Below are positions 5,314-33,625 of a stretch of 44,428 nt of DNA, piece by piece. The notes under the pieces are model-generated. The model worked only from the letters and a program-made list of their open reading frames with translations. It ran no database searches and was not told where the DNA came from. Every line of letters starts with the position of its first letter. Position 1 is the first letter of the stretch. The stretch comes from Deltaproteobacteria bacterium GWF2_42_12 (lineage in GTDB: Bacteria; Desulfobacterota; GWC2-55-46; UBA9637): assembly GCA_001797665.1 (NCBI GenBank), contig MGQA01000046.1:1-44428 (forward strand). The letters are read 5' to 3'. The position numbers and the translations under genes are program-made.

Positions 5314-5433
5314 TTCAAATTAAAGACCCTTTATAAGGCTGAAATACTGGGAATAAAAAAAGAAATGAAAAACAAGGAATGAAAAACTTACATCAGAAAA
5401 AACAAACTTAAATTTATCCCACAAATCCATTTC

Positions 5434-5526
5434 TGTCATCCCCGAATGCCTCTATCCCCGATAGAAGCACTTGGGGACGGATATGGTTTAAAACCAGATG
5501 CCCGATAGAAATACTCGGGCATGACA
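5434..5526. repeat. TGTCAT...ATGACA palindromic repeat
   Basis: The terminal arms TGTCATCCCCGAATG and CTCGGGCATGACA enclose two tandem half-units that each begin GATAGAA (5460 and 5504). This resembles the dispersed GTCATTCCCGAA-type repeats of many genomes. It fills much of the gap between the kinase and the DUF3108 gene. Confidence 0.65.
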
Positions 5527-5595
5527 AAATAAGGCAACATATTTTCATACACCTTTGTGAGCCTATGGTTCGTGCGGGTTTCACCTTTCATGTTT

Positions 5596-6471
5596 CTAAT
5601 TTCTGATTTTTAATCCCATCTTTGATGTTATCTCAACAAGGGTGCCTGTAACATCACCAAACAAGATTATATCCTTTGCCTTGGCATGAATTGGTATCAG
5701 GTCTTTTGTGAAATGCACTTCAACATTGCCTGTCTGAGAGCCGAAGAATTCTTTATCTATAACTATATCAGCGAGATAGGCTATTTCATCAGGATTAGGG
5801 TTTACCCTTGAGGCCTTTTCTTTGTCAGATGTAATCCTTATATGTATAGCTGAAACATTATTTTTTGGAAAAGTTGGAACACTGAGCTCTGTTCCACCGT
5901 CTATCTTGCCGTATACACCAAATCTGAAATTATAAAAACCAGTGAGGGGGTCGTCATAATACATATTCGGAGGTATTTGCTCTTCGGACTCCTTTTCATC
6001 TTTTTCACCGCCCCAACTTTTCCAATTATATGTCCTTTTGTTGTAATCTACCTCAGTATATCCATTCCTTGTCTTATCGCCTATCACAACAATCTTTTCA
6101 AATCTCTTTGTCCTGAATCTCTTTCCATCATCCACCTCTTCCACATAGGCATGATATATGTCTTTTCTGTAACTCGTGATAAATCCAATAAATCCCATTG
6201 TTTCAGCAACCAGCGATATTTCATATGTGTTATCATCTTTTTTATGTATGCCTATCTTGCCAACAGCAGCCTTTTTAAACCACAAAAATCCTATATTGTA
6301 CGTAAACTCTTCTCCGTCAAAATATTCGCCTATTGTTACCGGCTTGTTTCGGGTTTTACTCTCTATGTCCGATTGGCTAAAGGCAGATGGGTTGAGGAAA
6401 AATATGCAAACCAAACCAGCGATAAGCGATGTTTTAGAAATATGAATAATAAAGCCCTTTTTGGGTTGCAT
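5596..6471 (-). CDS. DUF3108 periplasmic protein
   Basis: The 291-residue product has an N-terminal membrane or signal segment (LIAGLVCIFFLNPSAFSQ) and a DUF3108 beta-rich body: GEEFTYNIGFLWFKKAAVGK, MGFIGFITSYRKDIYHAYV and a C-terminal KDIILFGDVTGTLVEI strand. DUF3108 proteins are exported, probably to the periplasm or outer membrane, and their function is unknown. It is divergent from pilB and appears intact. No operon partner lies downstream. Confidence 0.8.
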   Translation of the reverse strand: MQPKKGFIIHISKTSLIAGLVCIFFLNPSAFSQSDIESKTRNKPVTIGEYFDGEEFTYNIGFLWFKKAAVGKIGIHKKDDNTYEISLVAETMGFIGFITSYRKDIYHAYVEEVDDGKRFRTKRFEKIVVIGDKTRNGYTEVDYNKRTYNWKSWGGEKDEKESEEQIPPNMYYDDPLTGFYNFRFGVYGKIDGGTELSVPTFPKNNVSAIHIRITSDKEKASRVNPNPDEIAYLADIVIDKEFFGSQTGNVEVHFTKDLIPIHAKAKDIILFGDVTGTLVEITSKMGLKIRN

Positions 6472-10986: not shown

Positions 10987-12678
10987 ATGTCGCTTAACCC
11001 AATGCCTGTCCAGCCAACCTTACATACCCCTTTAATGGCCAGACTCAAATGGCTCATGGTCTTAAGGGTAGTTCTGGCTATTCTATTCATCGGCATATCA
11101 AGCTGGTTTCAGTTTAAACAAACATCGCCAATTCAACCAAGCTTTTATCCAGCATACGGGATAGTAATAATTACCTGCCTTCTTACCATCCTTTATGCAC
11201 GTTTGTTCAAATGGGTTGCTGATGCAAGGCTATTTGCCTATCTCCAGATATTCGGCGATATCCTCCTTATTACGGCAACCGTGTATGTGACAGGCGGCAT
11301 AGAGAGTCTTTTATCATTTCTCTATTTTCTCTCTATAATAAGCGCAAGCATCTTGCTGAATCGGACAGGCGGTTTTTATGCTGCTTCAGCGAGCAGCATT
11401 GCATACGGGCTATTAGTGAATCTTGATTTTTATAAAGTTTTGCCAACAGGATATAAGACTATTATGGCTGGGAATGTCGAATATGAGCGCGGGGATATAT
11501 TGGCTACAGTGATGCTTAATATAATAGGTTTTTTTACTGTAGCGTTTCTTACTGGCTATCTTGCAGAGAGGACTGTAAAGATAGAAAAGGAGCTCGAGGA
11601 AAAGAAAATTGATTTTAAAAAGCTTGAGGAGATGAATAAATATATTGTAGAGAATATAAACAGCGGGATATTGACAATAGATGAAGATTCAAGGATAACA
11701 TCATTCAACAAGGCAGCCGAAAAGATTACTGGCTACAGCCTTGAAGAGGTATACAACCAGTCAATTGATGCAGTATTTACAGACTTGATGAATGAACATG
11801 GCTATTCTATGAACCCTCTGGATGAAGGTCCTTCATATTTCAGGATAGATAAGGTTTTTAAAAAGAAAGATGGGAAAGAATTGTTTCTCGGCTTCTCTGT
11901 ATCGCCGATGAAGGAAGGGGGTCATGTTATAATATTTCAGGATTTGACAAGACTGAGAGATATCGAAGAACAGCTAAAAAGGGGAGATAGATTAAAGGCG
12001 CTTGGTGAACTGGCAGCAGGCATGGCGCATGAGGTTAGAAACCCTCTTGCCTCTATCAGCGGCTCTGCGCAGGTTCTTAAACAAAGCCTCAGTTTAAGTG
12101 ATGAAGCTCAGCACCTTATGGATATTATCACAAGAGAGACAAATAGACTAAATGCCCTGATTACAGAATTTCTATTGTTTGCCAAGCCCGCAGTAAAGAT
12201 GGCAAAGATAAATTTAAGCGATATTCTTAATGACACCATAGGCATGTTCCGAAATAGTCCGGAGTCAAAAAATATTGAAATTCAAGTTAAATTAGACGAT
12301 AGCCTCGTGATAAATGGAGACGGTGGTCAGCTCAAACAGGTATTCTGGAATCTTTTTTTAAATGCCAGTCATGCAATGCTTGATGGAGGGCAATTAAAGA
12401 TTGGAGGGCATTGCTCGCATATTAAACAGCCGTTTGACTCGAACGGGGCTAAGGTTGTTGTGATAGATATTTCAGATACAGGCGCAGGAATCCCTCAGGA
12501 TAAAATAGACAAAATATTCGACCCTTTCTTTACAACAAGAGATTCTGGGACAGGGCTTGGTCTTGCTGTAGTTCATAGAATCATAGAGAATCACAAAGGA
12601 ACAATCGAGATCAGGAGCAGACAAGGCGAAGGTACAAGTTTTAAGATAAGACTGCCGATGATGAAGAGCGAGGATTAG
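10987..12678 (+). CDS. pilS: PilS-like membrane sensor histidine kinase
   Basis: The N-terminal region (about 20-205) has six hydrophobic segments, as in PilS. A coiled coil (KIEKELEEKKIDFKKLEEM) leads to a PAS domain (about 215-325). The HisKA motif AAGMAHEVRNPLASISGSAQ carries His348, and the HATPase shows NLFLNASHAM, DTGAGIPQDK, FDPFFTTRDSGTGLGLAV. PilS senses pilin in the membrane and phosphorylates PilR. Normally pilS and pilR adjoin; here a repeat-bounded gene lies between them. Confidence 0.88.
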   Translation: MSLNPMPVQPTLHTPLMARLKWLMVLRVVLAILFIGISSWFQFKQTSPIQPSFYPAYGIVIITCLLTILYARLFKWVADARLFAYLQIFGDILLITATVYVTGGIESLLSFLYFLSIISASILLNRTGGFYAASASSIAYGLLVNLDFYKVLPTGYKTIMAGNVEYERGDILATVMLNIIGFFTVAFLTGYLAERTVKIEKELEEKKIDFKKLEEMNKYIVENINSGILTIDEDSRITSFNKAAEKITGYSLEEVYNQSIDAVFTDLMNEHGYSMNPLDEGPSYFRIDKVFKKKDGKELFLGFSVSPMKEGGHVIIFQDLTRLRDIEEQLKRGDRLKALGELAAGMAHEVRNPLASISGSAQVLKQSLSLSDEAQHLMDIITRETNRLNALITEFLLFAKPAVKMAKINLSDILNDTIGMFRNSPESKNIEIQVKLDDSLVINGDGGQLKQVFWNLFLNASHAMLDGGQLKIGGHCSHIKQPFDSNGAKVVVIDISDTGAGIPQDKIDKIFDPFFTTRDSGTGLGLAVVHRIIENHKGTIEIRSRQGEGTSFKIRLPMMKSED

Positions 12679-13239
12679 AGAATTAGCGGATTAGAGAATT
12701 AGATATGGCAAAATCATTCTATGAGTTGAGAATATGGCAAAAGGGATATGAGCTACTAATGAAGATTTATGATATAACAGCCGGGTATCCAGCAGGTGAA
12801 CGATATGCGTTAACTTCGGACATACGGAGATCCGCAAACTCTGTTATCGCCAATACTGCTGAAAGTCATGGCAGGTATTATTTCGCTGATAAGGTACGAG
12901 TATTATATACCGCAAGGGGAGAGGTAGAGGAGACAAGAAGTCACCTACGGGTATCTTTAGGTAGGAATTATATATTAAGAGATGAGCTTCAATATTTAGA
13001 TAAAAATTATGAGGGATTAGCTAAAGGAGTTAGTACGTATATTAAGCGAATTAGAGATTAGAGAATTAGAAAAAACTAATACAAACGCACTAAGTATTGT
13101 TACATTGTCATTGCGAGCAAAGCGAAGCAATCTCATAGTTTAAGGGGATTACTTCGTCGCTCTGCTCCTCGTAATGACACATTATTTAATGCGTTTGTAT
13201 TAATTCCCTAATTCGCCAATTCTCTAATCCGCTAATCAA
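12672..13239. mobile_element. Putative element: word-type inverted repeats around a four-helix-bundle gene
   Basis: The left end (12675-12703) is made of ATTAGAGAATT/AGCGGATTAG words. The right end (13209-13238) is its inverted complement (AATTCTCTAATCCGCTAAT). Between them lie the gene at 12705-13061, then a perfect 13-bp pair TAATACAAACGCA/TGCGTTTGTATTA (13077-13089/13190-13202), and inside that a TGTCATTGCGAG/CTCGTAATGACA palindrome (13106-13179). The block separates pilS from pilR. Mobility is inferred from architecture; no direct repeat of a target site was identified. Confidence 0.55.
12705..13061 (+). CDS. Four-helix-bundle protein (23S rRNA intervening-sequence protein family)
   Basis: The 118-residue product fits the TIGR02436 family: FYELRIWQKGYELLMKIYDIT, ERYALTSDIRRSANSVIANTAES, then a long helix with EVEETRSHLRVSLGRNYI. 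Relatives occur inside rRNA intervening sequences and are structurally similar to Avd, the nucleic-acid-binding accessory protein of diversity-generating retroelements. Function is unknown. The ATG comes immediately after the left word repeat, without a ribosome site. No reverse transcriptase lies in the window. Confidence 0.8.
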   Translation: MAKSFYELRIWQKGYELLMKIYDITAGYPAGERYALTSDIRRSANSVIANTAESHGRYYFADKVRVLYTARGEVEETRSHLRVSLGRNYILRDELQYLDKNYEGLAKGVSTYIKRIRD

Positions 13240-13245
13240 CTAACC

Positions 13246-14649
13246 ATGTCCAAAGAAAAAATACTCATAGTAGATGATGAAAAAAGCATCAGGGAGTTCC
13301 TTGAGATAATGTTGAAAAAAGAGGGGTATAAGGTTGGCTCTGCAGTGAATGCAGAAGAGGCCCTAAAGCTCTTTCATAACAGTAACTATGAACTTGTCAT
13401 CAGCGACATAAAGATGTCAGGCATGGATGGCGTTGAACTTTTAAAAAAGATAAAGGAGATAAATCCTGAAACCATAGTCCTTATGATTACTGCGTATGCA
13501 TCCGTTGATACGGCAATTGATGCAATGAAGGCAGGGGCATACGACTACATTACAAAGCCTTTTAATGTAGATGAGGTAAAACATATTATACAAAACGCCC
13601 TTGACAGGAGGAGATTAGAAACTGAAAACATACTTTTAAAGAAAGAACTCAAAAGCCGCTACAGTTTTGCGAATCTTGTTGGCACAAGCCCGAAGATGCT
13701 GGAGATATATGGGTTGATAAAAAGGGTTGCCAACACAAGGACGAATATTCTTATTAGCGGCGAAAGCGGAACTGGCAAGGAGCTTGTAGCAAGGGCAATA
13801 CATTATGAAAGCGAGCGAAAGGAAAAACCCTTTGTGCCTATTAATTGTGGGGCGATACCGGAAAATCTCCTTGAGAGCGAGCTGTTTGGCCATCAAAAAG
13901 GCGCATTCACAGGCGCGGTGGCGAATAAAAGCGGTCTGTTTGAGGTGGCAAATGATGGCACCATATTTCTTGATGAGATAACAGAGCTTCCGAAAGAACT
14001 TCAGGTAAAACTGTTAAGGGTCATTCAGGAAAGAAATTTCAGGAGGGTTGGCGGGATTGAAGATATATTGGTAGATGTAAGAATAATTGCGGCGTCAAAC
14101 AAGGAAATTGACAAGGAGGTTAAAGAGGGGAGATTCAGAGAAGACCTTTTCTACAGATTGAATGTAATCCCAATCCAGATGCCGCCTTTAAGAGAAAGGC
14201 AAGAAGATATCCGGTTTCTCGCAGAACACTTTTTTGAAAAACACAAGCAAGAGCTTGGCAAGGACATAAAGGGCATATCGCATGAGGCTATGGATTATCT
14301 TGAGTCTTACTCATACCCGGGCAATATAAGAGAGCTTGAGAATATAATAGAGCGGGCTGTTGCGCTGGAAAATACGAGCATTATCCTGCCTGAAAGCCTG
14401 CCTGAATATATTAGAACTCAGAAGGTAGGGTGGGCTTTGCCCACCGTCGGGGGTCAGGAGATACAACGTCCTGAGATTGAAATGCCTGAGGGCGGAATCA
14501 ATCTTGAAAAACATATAGAAGATTACGAAAAGGCCATTATCCTTGATGCGCTCAAAAAATCAGGCGGTGTAAAGAAAAAGGCGGCAGAACTGCTGGGTAT
14601 GAGTTTCAGGTCTATGAGGTATAAGATAGACAAATACGGAATTGAGTAG
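13246..14649 (+). CDS. pilR: PilR/NtrC-family sigma-54 response regulator
   Basis: It has a receiver domain (1-120, with DDEKS, phospho-acceptor Asp54 in SDIKMSG, and Lys in TKPFN), a sigma-54 AAA+ domain (about 145-380, Walker A GESGTGKE near 172, GAFTGA near 219 for sigma-54 contact) and a Fis-type helix-turn-helix at the C-terminus (KKKAAELLGMSFRSMRYKI). With PilS it probably activates pilA, which has a sigma-54 promoter at 16514. A palindromic repeat (GGTGGGC-TTT-GCCCACC, about 14423-14440) is inserted in frame in the linker and encodes VGWALPTVGG around residues 393-402. Its start follows the repeat block directly, with no ribosome site. Confidence 0.92.
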   Translation: MSKEKILIVDDEKSIREFLEIMLKKEGYKVGSAVNAEEALKLFHNSNYELVISDIKMSGMDGVELLKKIKEINPETIVLMITAYASVDTAIDAMKAGAYDYITKPFNVDEVKHIIQNALDRRRLETENILLKKELKSRYSFANLVGTSPKMLEIYGLIKRVANTRTNILISGESGTGKELVARAIHYESERKEKPFVPINCGAIPENLLESELFGHQKGAFTGAVANKSGLFEVANDGTIFLDEITELPKELQVKLLRVIQERNFRRVGGIEDILVDVRIIAASNKEIDKEVKEGRFREDLFYRLNVIPIQMPPLRERQEDIRFLAEHFFEKHKQELGKDIKGISHEAMDYLESYSYPGNIRELENIIERAVALENTSIILPESLPEYIRTQKVGWALPTVGGQEIQRPEIEMPEGGINLEKHIEDYEKAIILDALKKSGGVKKKAAELLGMSFRSMRYKIDKYGIE

Positions 14650-15400: not shown

Positions 15401-15757
15401 TCAAATAATTCTACTTCTTATCTTTTTGGGAGTAATAACGACAAATTTGCCATACAGGGAAATGCCATGCTCATTGAGAATTTTTATTAAAGAGTCTGAA
15501 ATATTCTTTAGTTCCGAAGGCTTATATCGCAAGAAGATTACACTTACATTTTTTTCTTTATGTGCAAAAATCCACTCTCCAAAATCACTATCCTCTGTTA
15601 ATAGCAGGGCATGATGCCGTCTTGCCAGTTCTAAAACCTCTTTATCCTGAATCCCCTGATAATCCTTCAATACTGAGATAACCTCAAAGCCCTTATTTAT
15701 TAAGTTTCTGACAATTCTGAAGTCAACGTTTTCGTCAGCAAGGATTTTAAGAGGCAA
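15401..15757 (-). CDS. DUF5615 PIN-like toxin
   Basis: The 118-residue protein has the PIN-like acidic pattern: ILADENVDFRIVRNL (first Asp), TEDSDFGEW (Asp cluster) and SVIFLRY. DUF5615 proteins are predicted RNases paired with DUF433 antitoxins. It overlaps the upstream DUF433 gene by 11 bases. It appears intact. Confidence 0.8.
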   Translation of the reverse strand: MPLKILADENVDFRIVRNLINKGFEVISVLKDYQGIQDKEVLELARRHHALLLTEDSDFGEWIFAHKEKNVSVIFLRYKPSELKNISDSLIKILNEHGISLYGKFVVITPKKIRSRII

Positions 15758-15980
15758 TCAATTCCTCCTGAGAAATAACATCAGCAGAGTAAGAAAGGGC
15801 TGCAAAAATATCTTCCTTTGTCAAATGAGGATAAGCTTCAAGCAGCTCTTCTACCGTCATCCCCTCTGATAGTTTTTTCAGGATAAGCTCTATCGTTACC
15901 CTTGTGCCTTTAATTACAGGTTTGCCAAGCATTATATCAGGGTCTACTGCTATTCTATCTTTATATTGTTGGGGCTCCAT
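15747..15980 (-). CDS. DUF433 antitoxin
   Basis: The 77-residue protein contains the DUF433 helix-turn-helix core: IAVDPDIMLGKPVIKGTRVT, then LLEAYPHLTKEDIFAALSYS. The start at 15980 is chosen because GGAGG precedes it. A longer frame to 16160 would translate repeat DNA. It is first gene of the DUF433-DUF5615 TA operon. Confidence 0.83.
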   Translation of the reverse strand: MEPQQYKDRIAVDPDIMLGKPVIKGTRVTIELILKKLSEGMTVEELLEAYPHLTKEDIFAALSYSADVISQEELIAS

Positions 15981-16087
15981 CTTATTACCTCCCTGTGTTA
16001 TTAGTTTTCCTTCTTCCCTTTTGCTATTTGTAGCATAAAAGACACATATCATAAAGCATCTGGTATCGTCAATAGAAAAGTCCGCCC

Positions 16088-16268
16088 GTAAAATAGCGAT
16101 TAAAAACCTCGCTATTTTACAAACCGGCGATTTGGCTGCCATACTTCGTTGTCGGCGCATTTTTGCTCTTCACCGTATTGGTGACATACGGCTCATCGCA
16201 AAAATGGCCTCCGCCTCGTCTGACAGCCAACTTGCCGGTTTCCCCAAAAATCAAACGCTATTTTTGGG
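16088..16268. repeat. Hairpin-cruciform-hairpin element, copy 2
   Basis: Hairpin A is GTAAAATAGCGA/TCGCTATTTTAC (16088-16120). Structure B has AAACCGGC/GCCGGTTT, GGCTG/CAGCC, GCATTTTTGC/GCAAAAATG and CCGTAT/ATACGG (16121-16241). Hairpin C is CCCAAAAAT/ATTTTTGGG (16243-16268). The stem order equals copy 1 at 3762. Hairpin C recurs inverted at 44119 with one mismatch in 27 bases. Confidence 0.8.
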
Positions 16269-20389: not shown

Positions 20390-20480
20390 GGACAACCCCA
20401 GAACCTACCAGAACCTACCAGAACCTACCAGAACCTACAGAACCTAACAGAACCTAAACAGAACCTAGGGACAACCCCCG
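20365..20480. repeat. Tandem AGAACCTACC array next to the transposase
   Basis: About eight copies of a roughly 10-bp unit AGAACCTA(CC) lie between two copies of AGAACCTAGGGACAACCCC (20380-20399 and 20460-20479). Units become irregular toward the right. There are no spacers, so it is not a CRISPR. Confidence 0.85.
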
Positions 20481-20488
20481 TATTTCTA

Positions 20489-20518
20489 TTGACAAAGCAC
20501 TTCAATTTCTAATAGAAT
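20489..20518 (+). promoter_or_regulatory. Promoter of the RAYT transposase gene
   Basis: TTGACA (20489-20494), an 18-base spacer and TAGAAT (20513-20518). The ATG at 20525 begins 7 bases after the -10 box, at the expected transcription start, so the mRNA should be leaderless. Confidence 0.68.
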
Positions 20519-20524
20519 TCGCCC

Positions 20525-21202
20525 ATGCCAAGGATAGCAAGGGTGGTAGTTCCCAACTACCCACACCATGTGACCCAGCGAGGGACGAATAAAACGAATA
20601 TCTTCATTGATGATGATGACCGCGGATATTTTCTGCAATGCCTAAAAGAGTCAGCCGTAAAGACAAAAACCAAGATATGGGTATATTGCTTGATGGATAA
20701 TCACTTTCATCTGCTTTTAGTGCCTGAAAAGGAGCAAGGGCTTGGTAAATGTCTTCATGGTGTCACTTTTAAATATGCCCAATACTTTAATCAGAAATAC
20801 GGAAGAAGCGGCAGGCTGTGGCAGAATCGGTACTTTTCATGCATAGTAGACAAAAATGAATACCTGTGGGTTGCTGCCAGATACATAGAAAGAAACCCGG
20901 TAAGAGCAAAAATAGTGAAGAGTGCAGAAGATTGGAAATGGTCGAGCGCCATGTTCCATATAAATGGCGGAGGAAGAGAATTCCCTGGTATACATGACTG
21001 GTTAGATGAATCGGAAAGAATAGAATACCGAAGATTCATTAAGGGTGAAGAAGGGGAGATAGAAAGGATAAGAAAGACTACATCTACTGGCAGGCCGTTA
21101 GGAGGTATGAAATTTGTGGAAGGGTTGGAAGGTCTGATAGGGAAGGTATTGAAACTCCAAAAGAGTGGAAGGCCAAGAAAGGTAAATAAAAACATGAAAT
21201 AA
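20525..21202 (+). CDS. REP-associated tyrosine transposase (Y1/TnpA_REP family)
   Basis: The 225-residue product starts MPRIARVVVPNYPHHVTQRG, as in this family. The HUH metal motif lies in MDNHFHLLLVP, and the Tyr-containing helix is in FKYAQYFNQKYGRSGRLWQ. Then come YIERNPVRA and a C-terminal TTSTGRPLGG segment. Such single-strand HUH nucleases act on dispersed palindromes. Flanking GGGACAACCCC (left) and GGGGTTGTCCCC (right) hairpins are its likely substrates. No ribosome site precedes it. It appears intact and is the only transposase in the window. Confidence 0.9.
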   Translation: MPRIARVVVPNYPHHVTQRGTNKTNIFIDDDDRGYFLQCLKESAVKTKTKIWVYCLMDNHFHLLLVPEKEQGLGKCLHGVTFKYAQYFNQKYGRSGRLWQNRYFSCIVDKNEYLWVAARYIERNPVRAKIVKSAEDWKWSSAMFHINGGGREFPGIHDWLDESERIEYRRFIKGEEGEIERIRKTTSTGRPLGGMKFVEGLEGLIGKVLKLQKSGRPRKVNKNMK

Positions 21203-21210
21203 TATAAATA

Positions 21211-21232
21211 TAGGGGTTGTCCCCCGCTTCCC
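21211..21232. repeat. GGGGTTGTCCCC hairpin, right flank of RAYT gene
   Basis: GGGGTTGTCCCC folds into a hairpin and is the inverse of GGGACAACCCC at the left flank. It joins directly onto a clipped toxin gene. Confidence 0.7.
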
Positions 21233-23627: not shown

Positions 23628-23638
23628 ATCAAGGATAA

Positions 23639-23731
23639 AATACAGGCTATAGGCTATGGGCAATGGGCTATAGGGGAAGACTAAAGGCATAGAATTTTCC
23701 TATAGCCTATCACCTATTGCCCCATGCCTGT
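23639..23731. repeat. Word hairpin in the gyrA leader
   Basis: The left arm ACAGGCTATAGGCTATGGGC and the GGGCTATAGG that follows pair with the right arm CCTATAGCCTATCACC and GCCCCATGCCTGT. It lies between promoter and ribosome site. The duplicated leader has an unrelated hairpin at the same place. Confidence 0.8.
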
Positions 23732-23746
23732 CTTTTTGGAGGTTTA

Positions 23747-26176: not shown

Positions 26177-27090
26177 AAAAGCCAGTGGTCAGTGGTCGGT
26201 GGTCGGTGGTCAGTGGTCAGAAGATAGGAAAAGAGGTTAAGAGGATAAGAAGCTGGGAAGATAAGAAAGCAAGAATTCTTAACTTCTCAATTTCTCAACC
26301 TCTCATCTTCTGCCTTTTACTGTTCACTGTTTTTTTCGGCTGCTCCCAGGACCCTGCTCTTCCTCTGTATGAAAAGGCAGAAGAATATTTCAGCAAGATG
26401 GACTATCTAAATGCAGTTGAAGGATATAGCAGTGTTGTAAGCAAGTATCCAGAAAGCTCATATGCGCCTACCAGTCAGTATAAGATTGGTTTTATAAATA
26501 GCCATTATTTAAAAAATGTGTCAAGGGCAATGAATGCCTATGCTACCTTAATCTTACTATATCCCAAGAGTAAAGAGGTAATTCTGGCACGACAGGATTT
26601 GGCAGATATATATATAAACAGCGGAGATTATCGAAGGGCAATAGGAGAGTATCAGTGGCTTATGGAGAACGCTGGTATAGCGCAGCGCGATGATTATCAC
26701 TATCAGATAGCAGCGGCCTATCTAAAACTTACTGACCTTAGACAGGCCAGGATAGAATTTCAGGAGATTGTAAAAAATTCTCCAAATTCTCAACTTGGGC
26801 CGCAGGTTTATTATCAGATAGCAAACACCTATTACCTTGAAGGCAACTGTCAGGATGCTATAAAGGCATATGAAAATGTGGCTTTGTTTTATCCGTCAAG
26901 TCCATTTGCCAGCGAGGCAAAACTTGGCAAGGCCATGTGCATCGAAGAAATGGGCAACCTAACAGAGGCGGTTGAACTTTATAGAGAGTTAGAAAAGAGC
27001 TATCCTAATCCTGATATTATCAGGGTGAGAATAGAAGGGATAGAGTCAAGGGAGAATAAGACATTTCCTATAGCGCTAAAGGAGAACTGA
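26173..27090 (+). CDS. BamD-like TPR lipoprotein with a repeat-derived signal peptide
   Basis: After an N-terminal extension the protein has a hydrophobic stretch ending in a lipobox ([10 protein letters not shown], Cys at about residue 56) and then about six TPR/Sel1-like helical pairs: [53 protein letters not shown]. This resembles BamD/YbgF outer-membrane assembly lipoproteins. The first 55 residues are encoded by a word hairpin ([12 protein letters not shown], then [10 protein letters not shown]), so the extension and signal core derive from repeat DNA. A later start inside the repeat is possible. The ATG overlaps the gyrA stop (ATGA). Confidence 0.72.
26180..26325. repeat. Composite word hairpin encoding a lipoprotein N-terminus
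   Basis: The left arm has CAGTGGTCAG-type words then AGAGGTTAAGAGGATAAGAAG. The right arm has CTTCTCAATTTCTCAACCTCT, then CATCTTCTG and CTGTTCACTG. Arms pair in mirror order. Confidence 0.75.
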
Positions 27091-28206: not shown

Positions 28207-29027
28207 CTCTTTACAAGAATTTCAAATTTCTAATTTCTAATTTCAAATTTCAAATCTTACTGCTTACTGCATACTGCGTACTGCTTACTACCGCAGGTTA
28301 TGCGGAGCCACAATCCCTCACCATTGCTGCCCCTGCTCAGCAGGGCATAACTACGCTCAGCGTGGCTGCTGCCTCTGACCTTTCTTTTGCCTTAAAGGAA
28401 ATTTCGCAACAATTTGAAAAAGAGAGTAATATAAAGGTTATAATATCATTTGGCTCAACAGGGGTGCTCTCACAGCAAATAGAGAATGGCGCGCCTTTTG
28501 ATATATTTTTTGCAGCTAATGAAAAATATATAAATACCCTGGAGGAAAAGGGGTTGATTATTCCAAATACCAAACAACTCTATGCTCAGGGTAGACTTGT
28601 ATTGGCTGTGCATGAGGGATTTAAGTCGAATATCAAGAACCTAAAAGACCTCCTTCAGCCGTCTGTAAAAAGGGTTGCAATTGCCAACCCTGATCATGCA
28701 CCTTACGGCATTGCAGCAAAAGAGGCTTTGCGAAAACTTGGATTGTGGGATAAACTGAAACCCAAACTTGTTTACGCTGAGAATATCCGTCAGGCTATTC
28801 AATTTATCCAAACAGGAGATGCACATGCCGGAATTGTAGCGCTCTCAGTGATTAATGTGCCTGAGGTAAAATACACAATAATAGACAATACTCTTCATCA
28901 GCCTATAAATCAGATAGTAGCTATCATGAGGACTACCAAGGCTGAAAAAGAGGCAAGAAAATTTATAGATTATGTGATTAAAGATGGAAAAGGTATTATG
29001 CAGAGATATGGTTTTGTTATGCCTTAA
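28203..29027 (+). CDS. modA: Molybdate ABC transporter substrate-binding protein ModA
   Basis: The mature part matches ModA: LSVAAASDLSFALKEISQQF, ISFGSTGVLSQQIENGAPFD, IFFAANEKYI, ANPDHAPYGIAAKEAL and IQTGDAHAGIVALS. It binds molybdate or tungstate in the periplasm for ModBC. The signal peptide is coded by tandem words: AATTTCAAATTTCT-type then TACTGCTTACTGCATACTGC-type, giving FKFLISNFKFQILLLTAYCV. A second small palindrome (CCCTGCTCAGCAGGG) adds residues before the mature fold. modB and modC lie 3.8 kb downstream beyond an inverted block of genes. Confidence 0.88.
   Translation: MTLYKNFKFLISNFKFQILLLTAYCVLLTTAGYAEPQSLTIAAPAQQGITTLSVAAASDLSFALKEISQQFEKESNIKVIISFGSTGVLSQQIENGAPFDIFFAANEKYINTLEEKGLIIPNTKQLYAQGRLVLAVHEGFKSNIKNLKDLLQPSVKRVAIANPDHAPYGIAAKEALRKLGLWDKLKPKLVYAENIRQAIQFIQTGDAHAGIVALSVINVPEVKYTIIDNTLHQPINQIVAIMRTTKAEKEARKFIDYVIKDGKGIMQRYGFVMP
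28212..28300. repeat. Word array encoding the ModA signal peptide
   Basis: TTTCAAATTTCTAATTTCTA-type words are followed by CTTACTGCATACTGCGTACT-type words. Here the words run in one direction, without a clear answering arm. Confidence 0.75.
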
Positions 29028-33528: not shown

Positions 33529-33530
33529 TT

Positions 33531-33607
33531 TAATTGCAAAATGAAGATTGTAAATTGCAAAATAGAGACAACTTTTTTTTCACTTTTCAGTTTACAATTT
33601 GCAATTT
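33531..33607. repeat. Word hairpin between modB and modC
   Basis: The left arm is AATTGCAAAATGAAGATTGT and AAATTGC. The right arm is CAGTTTACAATTTGCAATTT. Words are related to those at 10855. A longer modC frame would begin in it. Confidence 0.8.
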
Positions 33608-33625
33608 AAATTGGAGCGAAGCGAC

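Follow-up and report, generated by a model that had tools for sequence, protein, structure and literature searches.

The intervening sequences (IVSs) found in the 23S rRNA of Leptospira and Coxiella, which are thought to be selfish (PMC4990558), carry a single open reading frame of the intervening-sequence protein (IVP) family between complementary ends, in a unit of about 0.4 to 0.5 kb. The element described here lies between pilS and pilR in a window of 44,428 nucleotides, the whole stretch of DNA that was analysed (contig MGQA01000046.1 of Deltaproteobacteria bacterium GWF2_42_12). It has the same plan, but it is intergenic, its ends are tandem arrays of lineage-specific 7- to 8-nt words, and there are many such elements per genome together with gene-free relatives. 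REP/BIME repeats and the RAYT genes resemble IVP elements in that short gene-free hairpins are dispersed through the genome and fewer copies flank a related gene, but IVP is a four-helix bundle without the tyrosine/HUH motif of a Y1/HUH transposase. The window also holds a classical REP-RAYT unit (20398-21232), in which a RAYT-like gene with an HFHLLL motif (20516-21199) lies between the REP-like ends GGGACAACCCCCGTATTT and AATATAGGGGTTGTCCCC.

Three other systems invite comparison. Avd, a component of diversity-generating retroelements (DGRs), has the same fold as IVP, but in contrast to DGRs the window genome has no reverse transcriptase. Cyanobacterial STRRs and the GGGAATC repeats of Xanthomonas (PMC4692102) are tandem heptamers that, like the words of IVP elements, often form convergent inverted pairs hugging stop codons; the Xanthomonas pairs show a stop-codon bias, and no origin was proposed for them (PMC4692102). 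These heptamers were reported without a link to IVP, and the window element has a period of 8 where the dominant lag of the class is 7. MITEs and insertion sequences with repeated ends likewise have inverted ends and internal deletion derivatives, but IVP elements have no known transposase, no target duplication longer than 2 bp in the one clean pair of sites, and ends that are not conserved across the class. No paper linking IVP or four-helix-bundle genes to word repeats was found in the open-licence PubMed Central literature.

Anatomy of the pilS-pilR element

Three genes run in one direction at the locus, all on the plus strand: pilS (10987-12678), a sensor kinase with 6TM_PilS, HisKA and HATPase domains; an IVP gene (12705-13061); and pilR (13246-14649), assigned by domain search as a sigma-54 response regulator. 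The initial annotation had placed a gene of this family between pilS and pilR within inverted words, and both profile matches and a shuffle test of the arms confirm it. The 118-aa product, a four-helix bundle with a pI of about 9, matches PF05635 (E=1e-25, 90.5 bits against a cut-off of 33.8) and TIGR02436 (2.5e-25, 88.8 bits against a cut-off of 24), while PF22296 and NF033474 match below cut-off only. Its AlphaFold model (pLDDT 92) has its best PDB matches in the IVP of X. campestris, XCC0516 (2gsc, TM 0.88), in BT_0352 (2rld) and in Avd (4dwl/8ub7, TM 0.78), so that the fold is indeed close to Avd, as had been proposed. PDB entries 2gsc and 2rld each contain five chains, and the Xanthomonas IVP-family protein is described as a homopentamer (PMC4990558). 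IVP proteins are basic (median pI 8.9) and are under purifying selection, with dN/dS of 0.07-0.22 (0.12 between the window gene and its ortholog in genome G006). To our knowledge, IVP has no catalytic domain. PF05635 ranks among the most frequent orphan families of environmental bacteria and is present in 161 of 297 genomes sampled in the phylum of the window genome.

The 5' end of the element is a left word array (GGATTAGAGAATTAGCGGATTAGAGAATTAG) at 12672-12703 on the plus strand, and its 3' end is an inverted copy of that array at 13201-13236 on the minus strand. The words have a period of 8 (GGATTAGAGAATTAGC), and over 30 nt the outer arms (12672-12701 and 13201-13230) show 90% complementarity, with an alignment score of 25 compared with a mean of 9.5 and a maximum of 19 among 5000 dinucleotide shuffles. 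The word pattern occurs six times in the window, always at this element, against an expectation of 0.5. IVP is the sole gene between the arms, where no transposase gene is present. A third, forward array at 13048-13069 (plus strand; found, like the left array, by repeat search and shuffle test) overlaps the 3' end of the IVP gene and pairs with 13201-13236, making it the left arm of a downstream word hairpin, and the final residues of the window IVP are encoded by words. Stop codons lie inside words on both sides: that of pilS (12676-12678) is supplied by the left array and that of IVP (13059-13061) by the inner array.

The loop of the downstream hairpin contains a 132-bp MITE-like palindrome (13074-13205, no strand assigned; AACTAATACAAACGC..GCGTTTGTATTAATT around a GTCATTGCGAGC core) with AATACAAACGC ends. 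It has no kinship with the word arrays and is missing from the G006 ortholog; it is a separate repeat that struck the loop later. What had been described as two further nested palindromes is instead a third word array forming the downstream hairpin, plus this repeat in its loop. The palindrome core reads GTCATTGCGAGC..GAAGCAATCTC, and a copy of it at locus L353 adjoins a gene for a GIY-YIG nuclease that is possibly the source of the GTCATTGCGAGC-core repeat; tblastn found no GIY-YIG gene in the stretches of the window genome. The element lies outside any 23S rRNA helix, with its IVP reading frame between complementary ends, and an Rfam scan of 12000-14000 returned no rRNA, the sole match being a chance one to a plant miRNA hairpin.

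Two observations concern other parts of the window. A DUF5615-like and a DUF433-like gene, recognised by eye on the minus strand at 15401-16160 near a pilin gene, probably form a toxin-antitoxin module. Word arrays (AATTTCA, CTTACTG, CTGCCTA) also occur inside open frames, at 28218-28290 of the window and at 5389-6340 of locus L232, and there they code for hydrophobic segments resembling signal peptides in secreted proteins (in the window, a ModA-like protein).

Word arrays and the IVP family across bacteria

Association of the family with word-type repeats elsewhere, which the initial annotation had proposed as a check, proved strong and specific and extends over many phyla. We scored bracketing as the best local alignment of the 300 nt upstream of a gene with the reverse complement of the 400 nt downstream, and set the threshold at a score of at least 18. 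In the window genome (G000, about 92% complete) and its relatives, 46 of 66 IVP pieces reached this threshold, as did 3 of 139 control ORFs; for complete genes the figures were 41/53 for IVP and 0/20 for size-matched PIN genes from the same lineages (p=5e-10). Eighty named loci found by protein profile alone, from Patescibacteria, Bacteroidota, Cyanobacteria, Acidobacteriota, Planctomycetota, Desulfobacterota and others, gave 65% bracketed IVP genes against 11% bracketed control ORFs from the same loci (Fisher odds ratio 16, p=4.5e-21); about a third of the IVP genes in this set have no clear arms. The layout is one IVP gene between terminal arrays, in inverted orientation, of a 7- to 8-nt word repeated about four to six times. 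A tandem lag of 7 dominates (123 arrays), followed by 8 (35) and 14 (23). In 101 of 115 IVP elements and 42 of 55 gene-free hairpins, each strand has G-rich words at its 5' end. The G-rich strand of the array faces inwards at both ends of an element, and this polarity is a constraint that any mechanism must account for.

The window genome has 11 matches to PF05635, 10 of them above the family cut-off. Nine of these ten have inverted word arrays on both sides, weakly so in one of the nine, the truncated copy L010; flanks of the tenth copy, L007, were left unscored because it lies at a contig end. Each of the nine has a different word (GGGNTCAAG, GAGGATAA, GAATCGGG, GAATTAGC, GAGCTATCAA, GCGATTTAC, TTGCAAAATG, AATTTCC and GGGTTGC). 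When element pairs with any flank homology were removed, similar words were shared by 6-7% of pairs with 25-50% protein identity (7% at 45-50%), 17% at 50-55%, 35% at 55-60%, 46% at 60-70% and 80% above 70%, and word similarity correlated with IVP identity (Mantel p=0.002). Some words are shared across phyla: AGGCACAAAGG occurs in L111, L156, L180 and L199, and GGGTTCAAGGGG in L001, L098, L118 and L190. These comparisons show words that track the IVP protein and not the locus, with gene and words travelling together between unrelated sites and phyla.

Gene-free word hairpins belong to the same pattern. The three in the window, none assigned a strand, are one at 23637-23736 with the word GGCTATAG, which matches IVP arms of G001, a genome of the same family; one of AGAGGATAAG type at 26232-26311, which resembles the arms of element L002 of the window genome; and one of TTGCAAAATG type at 33529-33609, which resembles those of L008 in the same genome. 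IVP-bearing genomes have 13.3 (G000), 12.3 (G004) and 4.9 (G001) such hairpins per 100 kb, and four IVP-free relatives, whose genomes are higher in GC, have 0-3.4. In the window genome, 54% of gene-free hairpins match IVP arms of that genome, against 9% for equal numbers from random other genomes. In Anabaena UHCC 0204, more than 50 sites carry the words of one IVP element in the form of STRR-type heptamers, and an Anabaena IVP type carries the word GGGAATAGG. In keeping with the link first suggested between the gene-bearing element and the other word hairpins, gene-free hairpins carry the IVP words of the same or a sister genome.

Two further arrangements were seen among the collected loci. 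L243-L244 (G247) contain several near-identical partial IVP copies in tandem, one block of them beside a CRISPR array. Conjugative plasmids of Nostocales (L265-L267, L269) have an IVP gene in a conserved operon beside conjugation genes, with short GAAGTCAG word remnants, and this IVP has possibly been domesticated.

Insertion sites, decay and the origin of the words

The view that pilS and pilR are normally adjacent, with empty junctions elsewhere, agrees with a spacing of 6-10 nt in the sister family (f2 relatives). In G006 the junction holds an orthologous IVP (80% identical) that is flanked left and right by word hairpins. In G003 and G005 it holds a word hairpin without a gene and with a different word, and hairpins of other kinds are found there in G001, G002 and G004. 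The junction is a hotspot. Orthologs without repeats at the same place, or a family without such repeats elsewhere, had been named as evidence against the initial reading; neither is seen, because the G006 ortholog has words and the association of family and repeats was found. The window copy has no near-identical relative with an empty site, so its insertion is deduced at the level of the family, and insertion as a unit is seen in a related element.

That element emerges from a comparison of two species of one genus in the phylum of the window genome. With flanks 97% identical, G056 carries an IVP element and G156 has nothing at the site: AAGGAATATACCGTA is followed directly by ATATGTTACGATCCC in G156, and in G056 an insert of about 510 bp, which starts and ends with word arrays, runs from GGAGACCACAGACATCAGACAC (after ACCGTA) through IVP to GTCTGAGGTCTGAGGTCTGAT (before ACATGTTTAAATCCC). 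Similarly, Anabaena sp. 90 has an IVP element with long word arrays between cas6 and cas4, and a Dolichospermum plasmid with flanks 98.9% identical has neither IVP nor words there and carries a different repeat. On cyanobacterial plasmids, word arrays and IVP elements have repeatedly struck the junction between cas6 and cas4 in type I-D CRISPR operons (L268, L272, L273). Elsewhere in the genus of G056 and G156, a second junction has an intact IVP element in G156, a relic in G093 that retains a single arm and some 80 bp of gene sequence, a solo array in G183 and in G056, and in G128 an array with a GIY-YIG gene and a GTCATTGCGAGC repeat. Mobility as a unit is well supported, and the paired sites and the relic show that word arrays are the ends of an inserted unit, which decays to word-only arrays.

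This second junction bears on an alternative that we consider unlikely, in which the arrays are made by the host (through replication slippage or template switching at forks) or derive from another element and serve as landing platforms, with IVP, GxxExxY and GIY-YIG genes as cargo homing there. Two species (G183 and G056) have gene-less arrays at the position of the G156 IVP element, so that words could be what is targeted and not what is produced. The GIY-YIG gene beside an array in G128 fits such a view, as does the fact that gene-free arrays far outnumber IVP genes. GxxExxY genes are word-bracketed at three of four loci, one of them at a junction where a sister species has IVP; because some GxxExxY/PDDEXK_3 genes are also framed by words, IVP is not the only cargo, and a shared platform is possible. 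Yet neither the clean empty site of G156 nor the Dolichospermum site has words, the words at non-syntenic loci vary in step with IVP phylogeny, and PIN genes are unbracketed. Moreover, gene-free arrays can be leftovers, because G093 carries a decayed IVP relic. The GxxExxY/PDDEXK_3 genes (PF13366) in question, at L328 (G056:C4) and L345-L347, are bracketed by inverted words (GATTACACAGATTA, GCCACAGAGGACACAGAG) and possibly represent another one-gene element built in this way. A PDDEXK_3 nuclease was also considered as an obligatory partner of IVP and rejected, as G000 and 37 of 41 relatives lack it.

A possible mechanism and its alternatives

On balance, we think it probable that the pilS-pilR insert belongs to single-gene mobile elements of about 0.5 kb, whose word-array ends are recognised by their own IVP and which give rise to gene-free derivatives. 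We infer that IVP is the mobiliser. In the mechanism we propose, the IVP ring would recognise its own element's array, each subunit reading one word, in the form of single-stranded DNA, RNA or a hairpin. It would then pair the two ends and help host replication or strand exchange to place a copy of the unit at another intergenic site, often directly behind a stop codon. Hairpins that lack the gene would be mobilised in trans, in the way that RAYTs move REPs, and stop codons within words, together with placement between genes, could make insertion tolerable.

Action at the level of RNA, as in the 23S rRNA IVSs, is improbable. Here the word arms would form a stem in the polycistronic transcript, and an RNase III cut would remove the insert from the pilS-pilR message. 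Known IVSs do have the same anatomy, in which RNase III cuts the complementary ends that enclose an IVP reading frame (PMC4990558), and folding of the 12660-13245 RNA gives z=-4.7, although much of this is due to the nested palindrome. Mismatches between arms are nevertheless divided into 214 of G.U type and 247 of A.C type, and because G.U is not in excess over A.C there is no sign of selection for RNA pairing. Intergenic sites of every kind also harbour elements, and gene-free hairpins are found in either orientation. A conserved-motif scan found no IVP copies inside 23S rRNA among the fetched loci, and a search for phage carriage gave no match among 50,697 phage records.

We give even less credence to a DGR-like partnership, in which an Avd-like IVP would act with a reverse transcriptase in trans and the hairpin RNA would be copied and retro-inserted. 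The fold match to Avd and the DGR ribonucleoprotein and a weak positive co-occurrence of IVP with RVT_1 (OR 2, p=0.006) are in keeping with it, but gene content does not support it: RVT_1 is missing from 17 of 48 genomes with at least six IVP genes, and a reverse transcriptase is not needed, because the window genome, about 92% complete, has none. That an ordinary small orphan gene lies by chance or misannotation near unrelated low-complexity repeats has only its small size in its favour and is ruled out by the bracketing controls, the tracking of words with protein, dN/dS, the empty site and the shuffle test.

Beyond this locus, we advance more tentatively a reading that may hold, namely that IVP elements form a pan-bacterial class of minimal mobile elements whose sole protein is a small four-helix-bundle ring, with no catalytic site known, and whose ends are tandem words that diverge together with it. 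Such a class could be the source of many unexplained heptamer repeats, including cyanobacterial STRRs and the Xanthomonas GGGAATC pairs, with the rRNA IVSs as one branch. The evidence ties a common orphan family, PF05635, to heptamer repeats whose origin has been unexplained for decades, and suggests that recognition of simple repeated words by a non-catalytic ring protein can be enough to sustain a mobile element. The long-standing idea that rRNA intervening sequences are mobile is thereby reopened as well.
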